Source of the DNA: an uncultured Elusimicrobia bacterium
GTDB taxonomy: Bacteria > Elusimicrobiota > Elusimicrobia > UBA1565 > UBA9628
Assembly: GCA_903830945.1 (NCBI GenBank)
Contig: CAIKVT010000002.1
Coordinates: 1-46,446 of the forward strand
Length of the DNA stretch: 46,446 nucleotides
Direction of reading: 5' to 3'
Shown here: positions 11,877 to 20,219 of the stretch, piece by piece
Layout of the letters: the number at the start of each line of letters is the position of its first letter
How positions within the stretch are numbered: the stretch's first letter is position 1
The notes under the pieces: model-generated
Databases searched by the model: none
Told to the model about the DNA's origin: nothing
What the model saw: only the letters and a program-made list of their open reading frames with translations
Position numbers and translations under genes: made by a program

Positions 11877-14800
11877 TCAGGGCCGCGCGCGCAGGGACCA
11901 ACGCTTCTCCCTCAGCCAACGGCCCGCGTCATCGAAGAGGCTGTAGGCCACGGGCACAATGAGAAGCGTGATCAGAAGGCACAAGGTCTGCCCGCCCACG
12001 ATGACCACGGCCATGGTGCCGCGGTTGGCCGAGCCCGGGCCACGGCTCAGGGCTACCGGGATCATGGCCGCGACCAGGACGCAGGTGGTCATAAGGATGG
12101 GGCGCAGTCTGGTCTTATTGGCTTCCAGGATGGCCTTGTCCCGTTCCATGCCCTGCCGGCGCAAGGTGTTGGTGTAGTCGACCTGCAGGATGGCGTTCTT
12201 CTTAACTATGCCGAAGAGCATGAACAAGCCCATGATGGAGAAGATGGTCAGGTACTGATTAAGCACGATCAAAGACAGTATGGCGAAGGGAATCGCCAGA
12301 GGCAAAGAGAGCATGATGGTGACCGGGTGCAGGAAATCTTCGAACTGCGAGGCCAGCACCATATACATGAAGATGGCGGCCAGAAAGAAGGCCAGAAGGA
12401 ACTCGCTGAGCATCTTTCCGAATTCCTTGGATCTCCCCTCCATACCGGTCGAGTAACCGGGCGCCATGTGCAGAGACCGGATCGTTTCCTCGGTCTTGTT
12501 GATGGCCACGCTGAGCGGAACACCCGTCAGGTTGGCCATGATGCCCACCTCGCGCTGGCGGTTCATGCGGTCGATCTGAGAGGGACCGGTGTCCTCCACC
12601 AGGCGGGCCACGTTGTCCAGGCGCACCAGCCCGACCTTAGAGGAGGGCACATAAAGGGCCCCCACGACTTCCTTGCGGTCGCGGAACTGCTTGTCCACCC
12701 GAATGCGCACCTCGTAGAGCTCGTCGCCTTCCTTGTACTTGGTGATTTTCTCGTCGCCGCTGACCATGGTGCGCAGGCAGTTGGCGATGTCCTCGATCTT
12801 GACGCCCAGGTCCTGGGCGCGGTCGCGGTCGATGCGCACCTTGACTTCCGGCTTGGCGAAGACCAAGGTGGTGTCCACATCCACGATGCCCGGGGTGGCC
12901 CTCAACGCCTCAACGACCTTGCTGGAGTAGGCGCGCAGCAACTCCAGGTCCGGGCCCGTGATATAGTACTGGAAGGAGGCGTCGCGCTGTTTGCCCGAAC
13001 TGCCGAAATGGGACACGGGCGAAACGCTCAGGCGCAGAGCCGAGTACTTAGCCAGGGCCCGACGGGCCAGATCGATGATCTGCCCCTGGGTGAGCCTGCG
13101 TTTGGAGATGTCGTCGAGCTTCACATAAACCCGCGCGTCATTGACGTTGGAGCCTTCTCCCTCGCCGATGGAACTCATGACCAGGCTGATATTGGGCAGA
13201 CGTCGGACCTCGACTTCGACCTGGCGCAGTATGCGGTCCGTGGCGGAGAGCGTCGTCCCCTCGGGCGCGGTGAAATTCACCTCGAACTCGCCCGAATCGT
13301 CCGGAGGGATGAAGTCCTTTCCCACGATTTTCAGGAATGGCACAGACGACAGCGCAATACCCACGGCGATGAGCACGACTTTCCAGCGGTTGGCCATGGC
13401 CCAGAGCACCAGGCGACCGTAATGCTCCCTGAGGAAGTCGTTGAGACGGTCCACCCAGCGCTGGAAACGGTTCTTATCGCGCTCCACCTTGAGGAACCTA
13501 GAACAGAGCATGGGGGTCAGCGTGAAGGCCACAAAGAGGCTCACGGCGACGGCGAAGGCCACGGTTAAACCGTAGCTCTTCAAGAATCGCCCGACGATGC
13601 CGCCCATGTTGGCCAGCGGCAAAAAGATGATGATCAAAGACAGAGTGGTGGCCATGACCGCAGGTCCGATCTCCTTGGTCGCCACCGAAGACGCCTCCAT
13701 GGCCGAAAGGCCGTCCTCCTCCATGTGCCGGAAAATATTCTCCAGGATCACGATGGCGTCGTCGATGACGATGCCCACGGAGATCGTCAAGCCCAGCAGC
13801 GTCATCATGTTGAGCGTAAATCCCGCACGATCGATGAGCAGAAAGGTCGCGACGATCGAGGTTGGGATGGCGCAGGCCGCGATCAAGGTCGGGCGCACCG
13901 CGCCCATGAACAGAAGCACCGCCAGCGCCGCCAAGATCGAGCCCAGAACCAGGTGCTCCTCTACGGTATGCACTGAAGCCACGATGAACCCGGACATGTC
14001 GCGGATGACCTCGGCCTTGATGCCGGCCGGCAAAATGGGCTTTATCTCCTCGAGCCGCTCCTTGACTTTGGCGATGACCTCCACCGTGTTCATGCCGGAC
14101 TGCTTCTGCACGATCAGCGACACCGCCTCCTTTCCCTCGAGGCGCGCCAACGAACGCGCCTCCTCGGCGGTATCCTCGGCCCGGCCGATGTCCTGGATGC
14201 GCACCGGCACCCCGTTGACGGTGGCCACCACGACCTTATTGAAATCGGCCGGCTTCTCGATGCGGCCCATGGTGCGCAGGATGAACTCCCGGCGCTCCTG
14301 CTCGACCCGCCCGCCGGGGATCTCGATGTTCTGCTCTTTCAGGGCATCCTTGACCTTCTTGACCGTAAGCTGGAAGGACGCCATCTTGAGCGGATTCAAG
14401 ACGATATGGATCTCGCGCTCACGTCCGCCCACGATGGAGACCTTGCCCACCCCGTCGACGGATTCCAAGCGTTCCTTGACCTGCTTTCGCGCGATGAAAG
14501 TGAGCTCCCGGATGGGCATGTCTCCGCTCACCGCGATCGACATGACCGGCATGGAGCCGGGGTCGAACTTCTGCACCACGGGAGGGTCCGTGCCCTCGGG
14601 CAGGTCACGCTGGACGCGGGAAACCGCATCGCGCACCTCCTGGGCCGCCACGTCGATGTTCTTCTCCAGGACAAAGGTGATGAAGACTTGGCTCATGCCC
14701 TCATAGCTGGTGGCCTTGAGGTTATCGATGCCGGAGATGGTGTTGACCGCTTCCTCGATGGGCTTGGTGATGGAGGTCTCGATCTCTTCCGGGCCGGAAC

Positions 14801-14957
14801 CCTGCAGGGTCGTGGAGACGATGACGAAGGGCAAATCGATGTTGGGGAAAAGGTCCAGGCCCAGGCGCTGGAAAGAGAAGACGCCGATCACCACCAGGGC
14901 GGACATCATCATGGTGGTGAAGACCGGGCGCTTGATGCAGACGTCGGAAAGCTTCAC
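11877..14957 (-). CDS. RND multidrug efflux permease (HAE1/AcrB type)
   Basis: A 1026-residue inner-membrane proton antiporter of the hydrophobe/amphiphile efflux family. It is the trimeric pump of a tripartite exporter. The N-terminus KRPVFTTMMM leads into helix 1 and two large periplasmic porter domains follow (about 40-330 and 560-860). The proton-relay aspartates are in GIVIDDAIVILENI (D399, D400, equivalent to AcrB D407/D408). The helix-10 lysine is in FGIVKKNAIL. Length is normal. The start overlaps the stop of the adaptor gene by 4 bases, and it is the last gene of the tetR-tolC-adaptor-pump operon. Substrates cannot be told from sequence. Confidence 0.95.
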   Translation of the reverse strand: MKLSDVCIKRPVFTTMMMSALVVIGVFSFQRLGLDLFPNIDLPFVIVSTTLQGSGPEEIETSITKPIEEAVNTISGIDNLKATSYEGMSQVFITFVLEKNIDVAAQEVRDAVSRVQRDLPEGTDPPVVQKFDPGSMPVMSIAVSGDMPIRELTFIARKQVKERLESVDGVGKVSIVGGREREIHIVLNPLKMASFQLTVKKVKDALKEQNIEIPGGRVEQERREFILRTMGRIEKPADFNKVVVATVNGVPVRIQDIGRAEDTAEEARSLARLEGKEAVSLIVQKQSGMNTVEVIAKVKERLEEIKPILPAGIKAEVIRDMSGFIVASVHTVEEHLVLGSILAALAVLLFMGAVRPTLIAACAIPTSIVATFLLIDRAGFTLNMMTLLGLTISVGIVIDDAIVILENIFRHMEEDGLSAMEASSVATKEIGPAVMATTLSLIIIFLPLANMGGIVGRFLKSYGLTVAFAVAVSLFVAFTLTPMLCSRFLKVERDKNRFQRWVDRLNDFLREHYGRLVLWAMANRWKVVLIAVGIALSSVPFLKIVGKDFIPPDDSGEFEVNFTAPEGTTLSATDRILRQVEVEVRRLPNISLVMSSIGEGEGSNVNDARVYVKLDDISKRRLTQGQIIDLARRALAKYSALRLSVSPVSHFGSSGKQRDASFQYYITGPDLELLRAYSSKVVEALRATPGIVDVDTTLVFAKPEVKVRIDRDRAQDLGVKIEDIANCLRTMVSGDEKITKYKEGDELYEVRIRVDKQFRDRKEVVGALYVPSSKVGLVRLDNVARLVEDTGPSQIDRMNRQREVGIMANLTGVPLSVAINKTEETIRSLHMAPGYSTGMEGRSKEFGKMLSEFLLAFFLAAIFMYMVLASQFEDFLHPVTIMLSLPLAIPFAILSLIVLNQYLTIFSIMGLFMLFGIVKKNAILQVDYTNTLRRQGMERDKAILEANKTRLRPILMTTCVLVAAMIPVALSRGPGSANRGTMAVVIVGGQTLCLLITLLIVPVAYSLFDDAGRWLREKRWSLRARP

Positions 14958-15850
14958 TGGCTCTCCGTCTCGTCACCCTTGAGCTCGGCCAGGACCTCGA
15001 CCGGACTGCCGTCCTTGAGCCCGTAAAGCCCGAACACCGCCACCTTCTCGCCGGGCTTGACGCCTTTGCGGATCTCCAAGAACCGGTCGCTTTGCAGGCC
15101 CAACTCCACCTCTCGCTTGATGGCCTTACCGTTCTCGATAACGAAGACCGCCGGCCCGCTGCCGTCGGTCAAGGCGTCCTTGGACACGGCCAGAACTCCC
15201 GACCGGCTGCCCGTGATGAGGGTCACCTCGCCGAACATCCCCGAACGCAGTTTGCCGACGGAATTATCGAGCCTGGCCTCGATCAAGGTGCTGCGCGTGG
15301 ACGGGTCCACCACCGGGCTCACCCGGCTTACGCGCCCCACGAATGAGCGGTCCGGGTAAGCCTCGACCCGAACTCGGACGGCCTCGCCCAAACTCGCCCG
15401 CGCCGCATAACGCTCCGGAACTTCGGCGCGCACAATGATCTCGCTGGAGTCCACGACAAGGGCGACCGGCGTCTGCAGGGCCACATCCTGCCCCCGATCA
15501 AGGTAGATACGCGCGACCGTACCGTTCAAGGTCGAAGGAACAGGGGCGGGCTCGAAACGCACGCCCACCTCGTCACGCTCTACCAAGCAAACAGCCTGGC
15601 CTTTGCGCACCGGTTCGCCTTCCTTAAGAAGGTTTTCCTGCAGCTTGCCGGGCACCCGGGAGAAGAGGGTCGCCTCGTCCTTGGCCTTGATGCTTCCGAC
15701 AAGGATGATGGTCTCCTCGAGGTCGCGGGCCTGCGCCGGGGCGGTCTTGACCGGGAAAGTGTCAAGCCGCGCCGCAGCGTCCTTCTTCTTGCCGCAGGCT
15801 GCCGCCAGCGGCAGGACCGTCGCCATCATCAAAATGGCCAGTCGTTTCAT
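14954..15850 (-). CDS. RND periplasmic adaptor lipoprotein (membrane fusion protein)
   Basis: A 298-residue adaptor that links the RND pump to TolC. The N-terminus MKRLAILMMATVLPLAAAC has a lipobox (LAAAC, Cys19), so it should be lipid-anchored to the inner membrane facing the periplasm. The two halves of the lipoyl domain (around VPGKLQENLLKEGEPVRKGQ and LNGTVARIYLDRGQDV) are separated by only about 20 residues. The long alpha-helical hairpin of AcrA-type adaptors is therefore missing, which makes it a short adaptor. A beta-barrel and membrane-proximal domain follow. It overlaps both neighbours by 4 bases. Confidence 0.92.
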   Translation of the reverse strand: MKRLAILMMATVLPLAAACGKKKDAAARLDTFPVKTAPAQARDLEETIILVGSIKAKDEATLFSRVPGKLQENLLKEGEPVRKGQAVCLVERDEVGVRFEPAPVPSTLNGTVARIYLDRGQDVALQTPVALVVDSSEIIVRAEVPERYAARASLGEAVRVRVEAYPDRSFVGRVSRVSPVVDPSTRSTLIEARLDNSVGKLRSGMFGEVTLITGSRSGVLAVSKDALTDGSGPAVFVIENGKAIKREVELGLQSDRFLEIRKGVKPGEKVAVFGLYGLKDGSPVEVLAELKGDETESQ

Positions 15851-17169
15851 CGTACGGCCTCCTCAACGGCCCCACCCACGGCGCGTTCCAGCGCCGCCAG
15901 GGCCACCCGATAGTCATGCAAAGCGTTGGCGTAAAGAAGCCGGGTCTGCTGCAGGGCCAAGGTGGCATCGTTCTGCTCGAGCAGGCCGGCTTGGCCGGCG
16001 CGGTAGCGGACCTCGGTGGCTTCCAGGGCCCGGCGCGCCTGGCTGATGGCTGATTCCTGGCTCTGTGCGCGCTCCAGGGCTTCCTTGACATTGAGCCACT
16101 CGCGCTTGACCTCAACCTTAATGGCCCGCGCCGCCTTGTCCATGACGGTACGGGCCTGGTCGAACTGAGAGCGCGCCTGCTGAATCTTGGCCACGGTCTG
16201 GCCTCCGGTGAAGATCGGGTAGTTAAGACGCAGACCGACCACGGAGCTGGTGGCCCGCTCGCTGGGTCCAGGCCAGGCGCCGCCGGACTCGGAATACCAC
16301 TGATAATCCGCATACGCGGAAAGCCACGGCCAGCGGAAGCCCTTCTGGATGGCCAGGATGGCATCGGCCTGCTCATACTGCTTGTGCGCGGCCTGATAAT
16401 CCGGATTGCGCTCCAAGGCCGCGGACTGCAGGGCCTCATAGGAAACCAGAGAGGAAGGAGTTCCCTCCAGTCCGCCCACGACACGCACCTGGGCGTCCAC
16501 GTCAAGGCCCAAAGCGTCCTTGAGCATGGTCAGAGAAAGCTCCTCGCTGTTGCGTGCGGCCAAGAGCGCCGGCTGCGCGTTGGCCACCTCCACTTTCTGG
16601 CGCAAGACCACAAGGTCGCTGTCGAGGCCCTGCCGGTAGCGTTCCTCGATGGTCTGAAGATGGTCCTGCGCCAGAGACAGGAAATCCCGCTGGATGGCAG
16701 CAGTCTCGCTGGCCAAGCACACCGCGTAGAAAAGCCTCTTGGCTGTGAGGACCACGTCGGCTTTAGCGGCCTGGAGCTGCGCACGCCCCCCCTCCACGCC
16801 GACGCGCGCCGCCCGCATCCCTTGCGAGACCATGCCGCCGGTGAAAAGGTACTGCTGGAGGCTTGCCACATAGCGCATGCTGTTGTCCTGGCCTGACTTG
16901 AGCACCATGCCGCCCAGGAAGAACGACGGCTTCTCCAGATTGCGATTGTAAAGCCCGGTCAAGTTCACGGCCGGAAGGGCCGCGCCGATGGCCTGGCGGC
17001 GCTGGGACTCGAAGTAGGCCAGCCTCTCCTGGGCCAGGGCGACGTCCAGGTTCTGTTGCAGGCCCAGGGCGACGGCTTTATCGAGTGTGAGTTCCAACGG
17101 CGCGACGGAAGTCTGCGACCGCGCGGGCAGAGCCCAGAACGCCGCCGCCAGGAGCCAGGCCGTCATCAT
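15847..17169 (-). CDS. TolC family outer-membrane efflux protein
   Basis: A 440-residue outer-membrane channel component with a signal peptide (cleavage near ARSQT). Two structural repeats of long helices are typical of TolC. One begins LELTLDKAVALGLQQNLDVALAQERL and the other begins near residue 245 (SYEALQSAALERNPDYQAAHKQ). Short strand segments are GLYN-N and LRLNYPIFTGGQT. It forms the trimeric outer-membrane duct for the RND pump encoded downstream. It is translationally coupled on both sides by 4-base overlaps, first with tetR and then with the adaptor gene. Confidence 0.93.
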   Translation of the reverse strand: MMTAWLLAAAFWALPARSQTSVAPLELTLDKAVALGLQQNLDVALAQERLAYFESQRRQAIGAALPAVNLTGLYNRNLEKPSFFLGGMVLKSGQDNSMRYVASLQQYLFTGGMVSQGMRAARVGVEGGRAQLQAAKADVVLTAKRLFYAVCLASETAAIQRDFLSLAQDHLQTIEERYRQGLDSDLVVLRQKVEVANAQPALLAARNSEELSLTMLKDALGLDVDAQVRVVGGLEGTPSSLVSYEALQSAALERNPDYQAAHKQYEQADAILAIQKGFRWPWLSAYADYQWYSESGGAWPGPSERATSSVVGLRLNYPIFTGGQTVAKIQQARSQFDQARTVMDKAARAIKVEVKREWLNVKEALERAQSQESAISQARRALEATEVRYRAGQAGLLEQNDATLALQQTRLLYANALHDYRVALAALERAVGGAVEEAVR

Positions 17170-17726
17170 GGCCTTCTCCGCCCCTGCCAGCCGAGCTCAG
17201 CCAAGAGCCTGATGCGTTTGCGAAGGATGGAGACAGAAGGGCGGTCGCTCTGCAGTCCCTTGATGGAAAGGATGACGAGTTCAGCGACATCCGCGCCGCT
17301 CACGAAGCGGGCCAGCACCCGGATCAGGTAGTCCTTGTATTTGACCCCGACCTCCTCCCAGGCGCGCATCCCCTCGTCCAAGAGCTCCCCGCCATGCGGG
17401 CTGTCCGCCCCCTTGGCATAGAGACCCACCCCCCACCGCTCCAGAACCTCGAGGAACTTATCCTTGTCGCCGGCATCGGACTGGAGCACCGCCTCGGTCT
17501 CCTGCCTAAGCTCTTGCAAGACATCCTGGACTACAGAAAGGAAGAGATGCTTCTTGTCCTTGAAATAGGCGTAAAGCAAGGAACGCGACACGCCGGCCTT
17601 GCGGGCCACGTCGTCGAAGACGGTCTTGGCGAAGCCGTATTGGATGAAGCACTCCAAGGCGGCGGCCAAGATCTCCTGGCGCCGGATGTTCTTGCGCTCT
17701 TCCGCGGGGCTCATGTCAATACACAT
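17166..17726 (-). CDS. TetR/AcrR family transcriptional regulator
   Basis: A 186-residue one-component repressor. The N-terminal HTH spans about residues 12-58 (RRQEILAAALECFIQYGFAKTVFDDVARKAGVS, then LLYAYFKDKKHLF), the canonical TetR DNA-binding module. The C-terminal helical domain would bind the inducer and dimerise. It is the first gene of the efflux operon and overlaps tolC by 4 bases, so it almost certainly controls that operon. Two starts are possible, ATG 17726 and ATG 17714. Neither has a Shine-Dalgarno sequence. A -10 box 8 bases before 17726 favours a leaderless start there. A perfect palindrome covers both start codons. Confidence 0.92.
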   Translation of the reverse strand: MCIDMSPAEERKNIRRQEILAAALECFIQYGFAKTVFDDVARKAGVSRSLLYAYFKDKKHLFLSVVQDVLQELRQETEAVLQSDAGDKDKFLEVLERWGVGLYAKGADSPHGGELLDEGMRAWEEVGVKYKDYLIRVLARFVSGADVAELVILSIKGLQSDRPSVSILRKRIRLLAELGWQGRRRP

Positions 17727-17765: not shown

Positions 17766-19283
17766 CTAGAATGGAAAGCCGCCGGCTTCCTCGGCAGCGG
17801 CCGGCCTGCAGCGCCAGCAGGCCTGGCCGCCTTTGCCCACGGCACAGGTGCGGCAATCGATCTTGCTGCCGCACTTGGGCGGTGAGACGAAGGCATGGAC
17901 CTCCACCGGGTCGACCACGATGGCCTTGCGCGGCCGGGTCGGGCAGGCGAACTGGCAAGCCCCGCAGCCGATGCAGTAGTCCTCATGCTGGACCGGCGCG
18001 TAGACCGAGCGGAAAGGCTCCATGCTCAGCGCCCCGGTCGGACATTGCTCCTGGCAGGCGCCGCAGTCGCGCTCGAAAGCGTAAGGGATGCAGATCTCCC
18101 TGATGATGCGCGACTTGCCGATGCGGATGCGCTTCTTGGCCGCCAGCGGGAAATACGAGATGGCCCCGCTCGGACAAACGCCCAAGCAGGCGTTGCACTC
18201 GTAGGCGCAGTAGCTCACGCCGTAGTCGAGCCGCACCTTGGCCAAACCGCCGAGGCCCAGCCCGCGGCCCGCCGGGACCAGGACCCCGCTCGGGCAGACA
18301 GACACGCAGGTGTCGCAAGCCACGCATCGCTCCAGAAATGTCGCGTAAGCCTTGCCGCCGGGCGGCACCACGGCCGCGGCCGGACCTATCCCGAAGAAAC
18401 GCCTCTTCGCCCACGAACCGGCGGCCCAGCCCGCGACAGAGGAGCCGGCCCCGGCCAAAAACTCACGGCGGTTCAGAAATCCCACGGCTGAGGCCGAGGA
18501 CGGAGCAGCGCCGCGATTCCAGGGGCCTTGGAAGGTAAAAGCCATGACTTGCTCGGCGCACACGCTGGAGCACTCCAGACAGTTGATGCAGAGCTTGCCG
18601 TCTATGCGTCCATCCGATATACAAAGGGAAGGGCAGACCGCCGCGCATTTGCCGCACCCCCCCCCGCATCCCGCATTGCGGACCTTACCGGGCGCCACCG
18701 CCTGCATCAGCATGAAGAGAGTCCCCGAGGGGCACAGCGCGCCGCAGAACCAGCGCGGCCAACGCAAAGGGAGCAACATGACCACGGCCAGGAAAGCCAG
18801 CCCTAGAATAAAATTGGCGCCGAAGGGCCCGCCCGTGCGCAAGGCATGGAAGAGCCCATAGACGCGGCCCAAGCTGCTGAAATGGTCGAAATACAAATAG
18901 GCCGAAGACCGCTTGGCCAAGAAGGCCAGTCCCGAGGCCAGGACCAACAACCGCACCGCGGTCCAACCAGTGGTCGGCCGTCCGGCCAGGCCCAAGGCCT
19001 GGCCCACACGTCGGGAGATCTCCTGCAGGAACCCCACCGGACAAAGGAAGGCGCAGTAGAGCCGCCCGGTCAGGACCGTGACCGACAGCAGCCCGGCGGC
19101 CACGGCCAACGAAAAAAAGCCCAGGGGCGGAAGCGCGAACCAGGGCAAAGAGGCCATGGTAGGAAAAAGGTACAGGCCATGGTAGAAAGCCACGACATGG
19201 CGATCCGCGATCAAGCCGAAGCCTACGCTCAGGCTCAGCGCCAGGAAGGCGGACTGGGTCAGAAGGCGGATGCGGGGGACCAA
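17766..19283 (-). CDS. Membrane polyferredoxin, NapH-like/NapG-like fusion
   Basis: A 505-residue iron-sulfur membrane protein. Residues 1-195 hold about five helices with two NapH/NosR-type C-x3-C-P motifs (C77/C81 and C180/C184). A cysteine-rich segment (206-242) follows. At 271-290 there is a twin-arginine-like signal (NRREFLAGAG plus a hydrophobic stretch). After it come ferredoxin motifs at C320-C330, C359-C370, C407-C414 and C437-C447, and a last cysteine group at 471-492. The protein reads as a NapH-like quinol-interacting module joined to a MauM/NapG-like Tat ferredoxin. It probably moves electrons between the quinone pool and an extracytoplasmic partner. The DUF362 gene upstream ends 3 bases before it. 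Confidence 0.85.
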   Translation of the reverse strand: MVPRIRLLTQSAFLALSLSVGFGLIADRHVVAFYHGLYLFPTMASLPWFALPPLGFFSLAVAAGLLSVTVLTGRLYCAFLCPVGFLQEISRRVGQALGLAGRPTTGWTAVRLLVLASGLAFLAKRSSAYLYFDHFSSLGRVYGLFHALRTGGPFGANFILGLAFLAVVMLLPLRWPRWFCGALCPSGTLFMLMQAVAPGKVRNAGCGGGCGKCAAVCPSLCISDGRIDGKLCINCLECSSVCAEQVMAFTFQGPWNRGAAPSSASAVGFLNRREFLAGAGSSVAGWAAGSWAKRRFFGIGPAAAVVPPGGKAYATFLERCVACDTCVSVCPSGVLVPAGRGLGLGGLAKVRLDYGVSYCAYECNACLGVCPSGAISYFPLAAKKRIRIGKSRIIREICIPYAFERDCGACQEQCPTGALSMEPFRSVYAPVQHEDYCIGCGACQFACPTRPRKAIVVDPVEVHAFVSPPKCGSKIDCRTCAVGKGGQACWRCRPAAAEEAGGFPF

Positions 19284-19286
19284 GGC

Positions 19287-20219
19287 TTAAACCTTCAAAG
19301 AGATGCGCTTGATGGCGGCCCGGTCAAGGTCCATGCTGCCCACGCCCAGCTCAGCCGCCATTTTAAGGTATGGGACGCTCTCCGGGGTCCGGCCCAGAAC
19401 CTTGGCCGCCGCGCAATCCACGAGCACGGCGTCCGCGGAGAGGAGCTGCATCCTTTTCATGTCGAGGTCGTCGGTGGTGGCGCCGTAGGGGCCGTTCTCC
19501 ATCATGACCAAGAAGGCGTCAACGACGTTGAGGTCGGGCTTTCGCAGAAGAGGGAATTCCACGATGCAGCGCTGCAAATCGTTGCGGTGCCAGAAGCCGC
19601 GGTCCCAGACCACGCCCATGAGGTTCTTCAAGGCCGCGGTCATGCGACCCCCGCCATGGCTCTTCAAAATGGGAACGTTGATGACCGCGTCGCAGTCCAG
19701 ATAGAGCTCGTGGACCAGCGCTTCCTTGAGGACTTTCGCGCCGGGGATGGCGACCCTGCGGTAAGCCTTAATGTCAGAACTGGAACGCATCTCGCCGCCG
19801 TTGCGCTTGACCGCATCCGCGATGCCGGATCGGCGATAGCAGTCCTCTTCGCGGTTGACCGGATGGTCGAAACAATAGACCTTCTTGGCGCCGGCCTCGC
19901 AGGCAGCGGCCACGATTCGGCCGACCAGGTCGGGATTGGTGGTGGCGCCTTCGCTGGGCGTCTTGTCCCATCCGATGTTGGGCTTGACCAGGACGGTCTT
20001 GCCTTTCTTGACGAAGCGACCCAAGCCGCCCAGTGCCTTAATGCCCGCGTCGAACATCCGCGCCGGCGATCCGTCGCGCACCGCGACCAGGTCAGGCTGG
20101 GCGGGTTTAGAAGCGTCATCCTCCGTGCCCAAGAGCGGCATGCGCAAGAACGACGGCAGCAGCCCGCCGGCTGCGGCGGTCAGGCCGAGCTTGAGCAATC
20201 CCCTCCGCGTGATTTCCAT
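19287..20219 (-). CDS. Tat-exported DUF362 protein
   Basis: A 310-residue protein of the DUF362 family, whose biochemical role is not established. It has a twin-arginine signal (TRRGLLKLGLTAAAGGLLPSF). The family core is visible as VLVKPNIGW near residue 95 and, later, a DAVINVPILKSHG segment. The Tat signal implies export of a folded, possibly cofactor-containing protein. It is the first gene of a two-gene operon with the polyferredoxin. DUF362 proteins are often neighbours or fusions of ferredoxins, so a redox role is likely. A weak TATCAT box lies 9 bases before the ATG, and no strong Shine-Dalgarno sequence is seen. Confidence 0.85.
   Translation of the reverse strand: MEITRRGLLKLGLTAAAGGLLPSFLRMPLLGTEDDASKPAQPDLVAVRDGSPARMFDAGIKALGGLGRFVKKGKTVLVKPNIGWDKTPSEGATTNPDLVGRIVAAACEAGAKKVYCFDHPVNREEDCYRRSGIADAVKRNGGEMRSSSDIKAYRRVAIPGAKVLKEALVHELYLDCDAVINVPILKSHGGGRMTAALKNLMGVVWDRGFWHRNDLQRCIVEFPLLRKPDLNVVDAFLVMMENGPYGATTDDLDMKRMQLLSADAVLVDCAAAKVLGRTPESVPYLKMAAELGVGSMDLDRAAIKRISLKV

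Follow-up and report, generated by a model that had tools for sequence, protein, structure and literature searches.

A probable Sec- and Tat-assembled polyferredoxin paired with a DUF362 protein in an uncultured Elusimicrobia bacterium

Introduction

How is a polytopic membrane protein assembled when a Tat-type signal stands in the middle of its chain, and which partner would receive electrons from the iron-sulfur clusters that follow this signal? The question is raised by a gene in a stretch of 46,446 nucleotides (the window; contig CAIKVT010000002.1 of assembly GCA_903830945.1) from an uncultured Elusimicrobia bacterium, whose product joins a NapH-like membrane half to a NapG-like ferredoxin half. 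The initial annotation of the window presented this layout as an unusual one, but it belongs to a published family. In a genome search for this layout, Tooke et al. (2017; PMC5449189) arrived at the NapH-NapG "polyferredoxin" of MLMS-1 (Q1NSB0), homologues of which occur in Chloroflexi, Nitrospirae, and Euryarchaeota. According to that study, MBP and AmiA fusions of the protein are exported by Tat only when the twin arginines are intact, the membrane part inserts without Tat so that the protein needs both Sec and Tat, and the hand-over from Sec to Tat is associated with a last helix of low hydrophobicity and with C-terminal positive charges.

The window gene would extend the small set of Sec-plus-Tat proteins to one more phylum and to a member with a constant DUF362 partner. 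The occurrence of both fused and split genes next to the same DUF362 gene and tatC provides a natural test of a fusion versus a fission origin, and TatC proteins without the residue for the second arginine, beside substrates without the second arginine, provide one of why Tat needs two.

Anatomy of the fusion protein

The gene (positions 17766..19283, minus strand) has a TTG start and encodes 505 amino acids; its assignment is based on the open reading frame, on matches to Fer4 families, and on NapH, NapG, and MauM profile matches below cut-off. The membrane half (residues 1-270; 18474..19283, minus strand) was delimited by hydropathy peaks, Fer4_5, and the NapH profile and shows four main hydropathy peaks plus a borderline one at a CX3CP site; a comparable ambiguity in the number of transmembrane helices (TMDs) before the motif is found in the MLMS-1 study (PMC5449189). 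The NapG/MauM-like half (residues 292-505; 17769..18410, minus strand) is marked by four 4Fe-4S motifs, a Cys-rich tail, and a C-terminal GFPF. Inspection by eye gave two CX3CP motifs in the membrane half (C77/C81 and C180/C184) and, for the whole protein, two cytoplasmic-side [4Fe-4S] motifs before the twin arginines (RR) and four distal ones after them.

Pfam gives two Fer4_5 matches within the membrane half and matches to several Fer4 models downstream of the RR, and NCBIfam places NapH at residues 69-252, NapG at 271-462, and MauM/NapG at 302-461, all far below the model cut-offs: the equivalogs NapH and NapG reached 59.6 of 234 and 44.6 of 269 bits and thus missed their curated thresholds. 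Together with the motifs, these matches bear out the proposed fusion of a NapH-like to a NapG-like half. A sequence comparison with the PDB returned polyferredoxin relatives, and homologues in the alignment are 42-82% identical. At least four ferredoxin motifs had been announced downstream of the RR; four were found (C320-C330, C359-C370, C398-C414, and C437-C447), and they are invariant in the nine fusions of the window's clade. An AlphaFold model calculated with four homologues had a mean pLDDT of 33 and was discarded.

Two features of the C-terminus may be recorded separately. The chain ends in F-P-F or F-A-F in 9/9 fusions of the clade despite a variable preceding stretch, and a Cys-rich tail after the last ferredoxin motif (e.g., CRTC...CWRC; 17769-17873, minus strand, in the window) is present in only four of the nine.

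The internal Tat-type signal

Between the two halves lies a Tat-type signal, NRREFLAGAGSSVAGWAAGSW (residues 271-291; 18411..18473, minus strand), followed by AKRR and assigned by the Tat profiles PF10518 and TIGR01409, by its low hydropathy, and by its basic flank. Translation of the minus-strand frame puts NRREFLAGAG at residues 271-280, as originally described, i.e., N271-R-R-E-F-L-A-G-A-G, then SSVAGWAAGSW and AKRR, directly before the last TMD. The helix behind the RR has a Kyte-Doolittle hydropathy of 0.82 (17 residues). In 53 fusions, the median is 1.72 for the post-motif helix versus 2.09 for the helices of the N-terminal half (17- and 19-residue windows), and a mean of 4.6 K/R occurs in the 25 residues after the post-motif helix.

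Scans of the organism's own 3.24-Mb genome gave two matches with TIGR01409 and three with PF10518, and in both the best match was the signal of the DUF362 protein encoded next door, followed by the internal fusion segment. As the E-value of the latter is about 0.6, the result ranks the segment and does not prove it. With R272 invariant in the nine close homologues and the second-best Tat-profile match of the genome, the claim of an internal Tat-type signal was upheld.

A lack of conservation of the RR segment had been named as an argument against this claim, and it applies to the second arginine only. The latter is replaced in two of the nine closest homologues (RA in G002, RK in G041), and 19 of the 56 Elusimicrobiota rows have a residue other than R at the second motif position. 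The first position is basic in each of 60 rows, 52 with R and 8 with K (56 from Elusimicrobiota and 4 from Bacteroidales), and across relatives S/T/N-R-[R/K/A]-x-F-L is kept while the preceding linker varies.

The DUF362 partner and the distribution of the fusion

The fusion gene is preceded, at a spacing of 3 bp, by a gene for a DUF362 protein of 310 amino acids (19287..20219, minus strand; PF04015, E-value 1.9e-45, 155.8 bits versus a gathering cut-off of 24), which is the first gene of a two-gene unit. Its product begins MEITRRGLLKLGLTAAAGG and contains the N-terminal Tat signal MEITRRGLLKLG; the Tat signal ascribed to this upstream gene was thus confirmed, both in the sequence and as the best Tat-profile match of the genome. 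A DUF362 gene lies directly upstream of the fusion in 9/9 members of the window's clade, where it is the sole constant neighbour seen, and the two-gene unit contains no reductase gene. The same order, DUF362 before a fusion, is present in a Parabacteroides distasonis plasmid record. In Pfam, DUF362 and the LarA family DUF2088 belong to one clan (PMC11770544); a profile search for solved relatives gave one match with an E-value of 1.2 and hence none of use. In the one literature collection searched, nothing was found that links DUF362 to such NapH-NapG fusions, and DUF362 has no mention in the main text of PMC5449189; the pairing, as read from gene order, appears to be new. Two Bacteroidales copies of the fusion (L038 and L039) adjoin aldo/keto reductase genes, whose products may be another electron partner.

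A single-sequence search of genome contigs returned only four close loci, all from Elusimicrobia. Among 57 genomes including the organism's own, full-length fusions were found in the latter, in five of the same genus, in two others of the same family, and in one of a sister family. Across the phylum, 56 of 340 genomes gave matches, and 56 fusion-type genes were counted in 48 genomes, one of them a split pair and some cut by contig ends; eight of the 56 genomes with separate NapH- and NapG-like matches only and an N-terminal-half fragment of G319 were excluded. For 32 of the 56 fusion genes (26 genomes), tatC lies within 4 kb on the same contig, some of the misses being due to contig ends; the figure for the window's clade is 0/9, and in the organism's own genome TatC and TatA are encoded outside the window (at C60 and C5). 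This linkage across the phylum, again judged from gene order, also appears to be new.

The order tatA-tatC-DUF362-fusion is frequent among the tatC-linked relatives; other arrangements in the phylum are tatC-DUF362-fusion, DUF362-fusion-tatC, and fusion-tatC. Six Elusimicrobiota genomes (L064, L070-L077, L083, L084, L087) possess two tatC genes, each less than 4 kb from its own fusion.

Split homologues next to DUF362, for which the initial annotation had proposed a search, were found in one genome (G323, locus L103): behind tatC and DUF362, a NapH-like frame of about 300 amino acids is followed by a separate NapG-like frame of about 210 amino acids with another reading frame and its own start, which carries the signal L-T-R-A-Q-F-L. 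The split may be a sequencing error at the junction. In a tree of the C-terminal halves, the fusions and the split gene of G323 are separated from the phylum's standalone NapG-like proteins with an SH-aLRT of 98. G323 falls into an unresolved part of this tree, which is compatible with both fusion and fission.

Proposed assembly and function

With a probability of roughly 0.78, we regard the window gene product as a polyferredoxin that is assembled by both Sec and Tat and carries electrons to its Tat-exported DUF362 partner. Sec would insert the NapH-like half with its four helices and, by analogy with the protein studied by Tooke et al. (2017), would release the weakly hydrophobic fifth helix, which follows N-R-R-E-F-L and has AKRR behind it. 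The clusters of the NapG-like half would fold in the cytoplasm before Tat moves this half across the membrane, and electrons would then pass from the membrane or the cytoplasmic side via the extracytoplasmic clusters to the DUF362 protein. The anatomy of the fusion, its conservation, the pairing with DUF362, the tatC linkage in relatives, and TatA and TatC in the organism's own genome are observed; the topology and the Tat dependence are predicted from them, the direction and the substrate of electron transfer are presumptive, and it is the gene pairing that suggests DUF362 as the acceptor.

The window protein is likely a member of the dual Sec/Tat polyferredoxin family because its low-hydropathy helix and AKRR recall the weak fifth helix of the MLMS-1 protein with basic residues after it; it also shares with the latter the NapH-like helices, the Tat motif before TMD5, and a NapG-like domain with four clusters. 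The MLMS-1 protein has seven clusters, three of them cytoplasmic (PMC5449189), whereas the motifs of the window protein account for six. Sec-inserted helices followed by an internal Tat signal are likewise found in the actinobacterial Rieske protein Sco2149/QcrA, which differs in having three helices and an unrelated cofactor domain.

Alternatively, the NapG-like half could stay in the cytoplasm, with the RR acting as a positive-inside topology signal next to a weak helix. The incomplete conservation of the RR, the poor hydrophobicity of the following stretch (0.82), and the weak Tat-profile scores (E-value near 0.6) would fit; the NapH and NapG scores far below cut-off and the remoteness of tatC in the window's clade also speak against the main reading. 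The motif with the conserved F-L is nevertheless maintained behind a variable linker, basic residues follow the helix, tatC and tatA are linked to the gene in relatives, the DUF362 partner has a matching N-terminal signal, and the reporter data on the MLMS-1 protein of the same architecture (PMC5449189) demonstrate export, so that a cytoplasmic location is improbable.

Less remote, though still doubtful, is a role as NapGH-type quinol dehydrogenase that serves another periplasmic reductase; DUF362 would then be an accessory or assembly factor and not the acceptor. Both halves resemble NapG and NapH by profile; moreover, the Bacteroidales paralogues beside aldo/keto reductase genes have no DUF362 there, and one fusion type adjoins tatC with no DUF362 gene in the DNA that was read. 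Against such a role, DUF362 is the only constant neighbour seen in the window's clade, and no reductase gene was seen in its unit. Of the known systems, the NapG plus NapH (MauM/MauN) quinol dehydrogenase resembles the window protein in both halves, and its two-gene state recurs in L103; the window protein differs in being fused, in scoring below the model cut-offs, and in belonging to a clade apart from standalone NapG-like proteins.

TatC and the second arginine

The phoD-tatAd-tatCd genes of B. subtilis form a dedicated Tat operon. The tatA-tatC-DUF362-fusion arrangement of the relatives likewise combines translocase and substrate in one operon; it differs in that its substrates are a polytopic fusion and a DUF362 protein with R[KA] motifs, and it is absent from the window's clade. 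A natural Tat signal without one of the arginines was reportedly described in 2001.

TatC residues are numbered as in E. coli (checked on K-12). In a cryo-EM study from 2026 (PMC13323110), the first arginine of the signal is located at E15/F94 of TatC and the second forms a salt bridge with E103 and packs on Y100, E103A serving as binding-negative control. Of 57 rows of Elusimicrobiota TatC, 27 have E103 and 30 have another residue; the 30 comprise 13 TatC of the window's order (L, W, or F; L in the own genome) and 17 of a second clade (Q, K, R, H, A, P, V, I, or L), with a TatA-like frame upstream of tatC at 14 of the 17 loci of the second clade. Y100 occurs in 0/30 TatC without E103 versus 21/27 with it; H12 is conserved throughout, and F94 with a single exception. 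Among ten TatC encoded in plasmid records from other bacteria, position 103 is E in nine and S in one, and the literature collection searched yielded nothing on E103-less TatC in Elusimicrobiota.

Counted as gene copies, which are not independent events, E103-bearing TatC are paired with R at the second position in 26/26 fusions and 5/5 DUF362 proteins, i.e., with no loss of the second arginine among 26 paired fusions, and E103-less TatC with another residue in 18/25 fusions and 21/26 DUF362 proteins. Both fusion and DUF362 protein of the second TatC clade carry [ST]R[KA]xF instead of RR, the DUF362 signals wherever the N-terminus lay in the stretch, and in the E103-less family of the window RR, RK, and RA all occur. 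In the five genomes from which both TatC types were retrieved, each TatC adjoins a fusion of the matching kind. As genomes of the window's order that lack E103 contain RR signals as well, loss of E103 would permit but not force loss of the second arginine. The pairing leaves out G297 and G318 (no TatC found), the TatC of G005, G007, G008, G011, and G031 are without fusion, and a second TatC of G295 lies outside the set. G297 does not fit neatly: its only TatC is E103-less and adjoins a DUF362 gene with TRK, yet its only fusion, on another contig, carries KRR.

The pattern is a testable lead from sequence comparison and not a statistical proof. At even odds, Elusimicrobiota Tat translocases without the second-arginine pocket (E103, Y100) read a single-arginine code; in the second clade, this would include a tatA-tatC-DUF362-polyferredoxin operon exporting or inserting two [ST]R[KA]xF substrates, sometimes beside an RR-reading TatC in the same cell, and in the window's family the pocket would be lost as well, with the second arginine drifting between RR, RK, and RA. 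A phylogenetic coincidence, in which two old lineages happen to differ in both traits, appears somewhat unlikely. It would agree with the TatC tree, which has only two E103 changes and provides one independent pair, too few for significance in an independent-pairs test, and with an event test in which all three losses fall on E103-less branches that make up 54% of the length (fusion rows; p about 0.16). The contact of the second arginine with E103 in the structure (PMC13323110) speaks against coincidence, as do later losses of this arginine within the window's clade (fusions of G002 and G041; DUF362 proteins of G002, G003, G004, and G006) and the matching motif beside each TatC where two paralogues share a genome.

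When 400 kb from each of G308 and G324 were scanned for additional Tat signals, only that of the G308 DUF362 protein was convincing; this is a weak negative result because the known DUF362 signal of G324, with its long n-region, was missed. Covariation between the first arginine and position 15 was not seen, six TatC with A15 and E103 being paired with fusions that keep the first arginine. Position 15, which holds the first arginine in E. coli, is A or D in several E103-bearing TatC (L070, L077, L084, L123, and others), yet their fusions keep the first arginine.

Genes downstream of the fusion

Downstream of the fusion and on the same strand (11877-17726), a TetR regulator is followed by TolC-type, membrane-fusion, and RND efflux-like reading frames, named by eye except for TetR (Pfam). 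Similar DNA is also conserved in the vicinity of the L032 fusion, and a partial match is present in L034.
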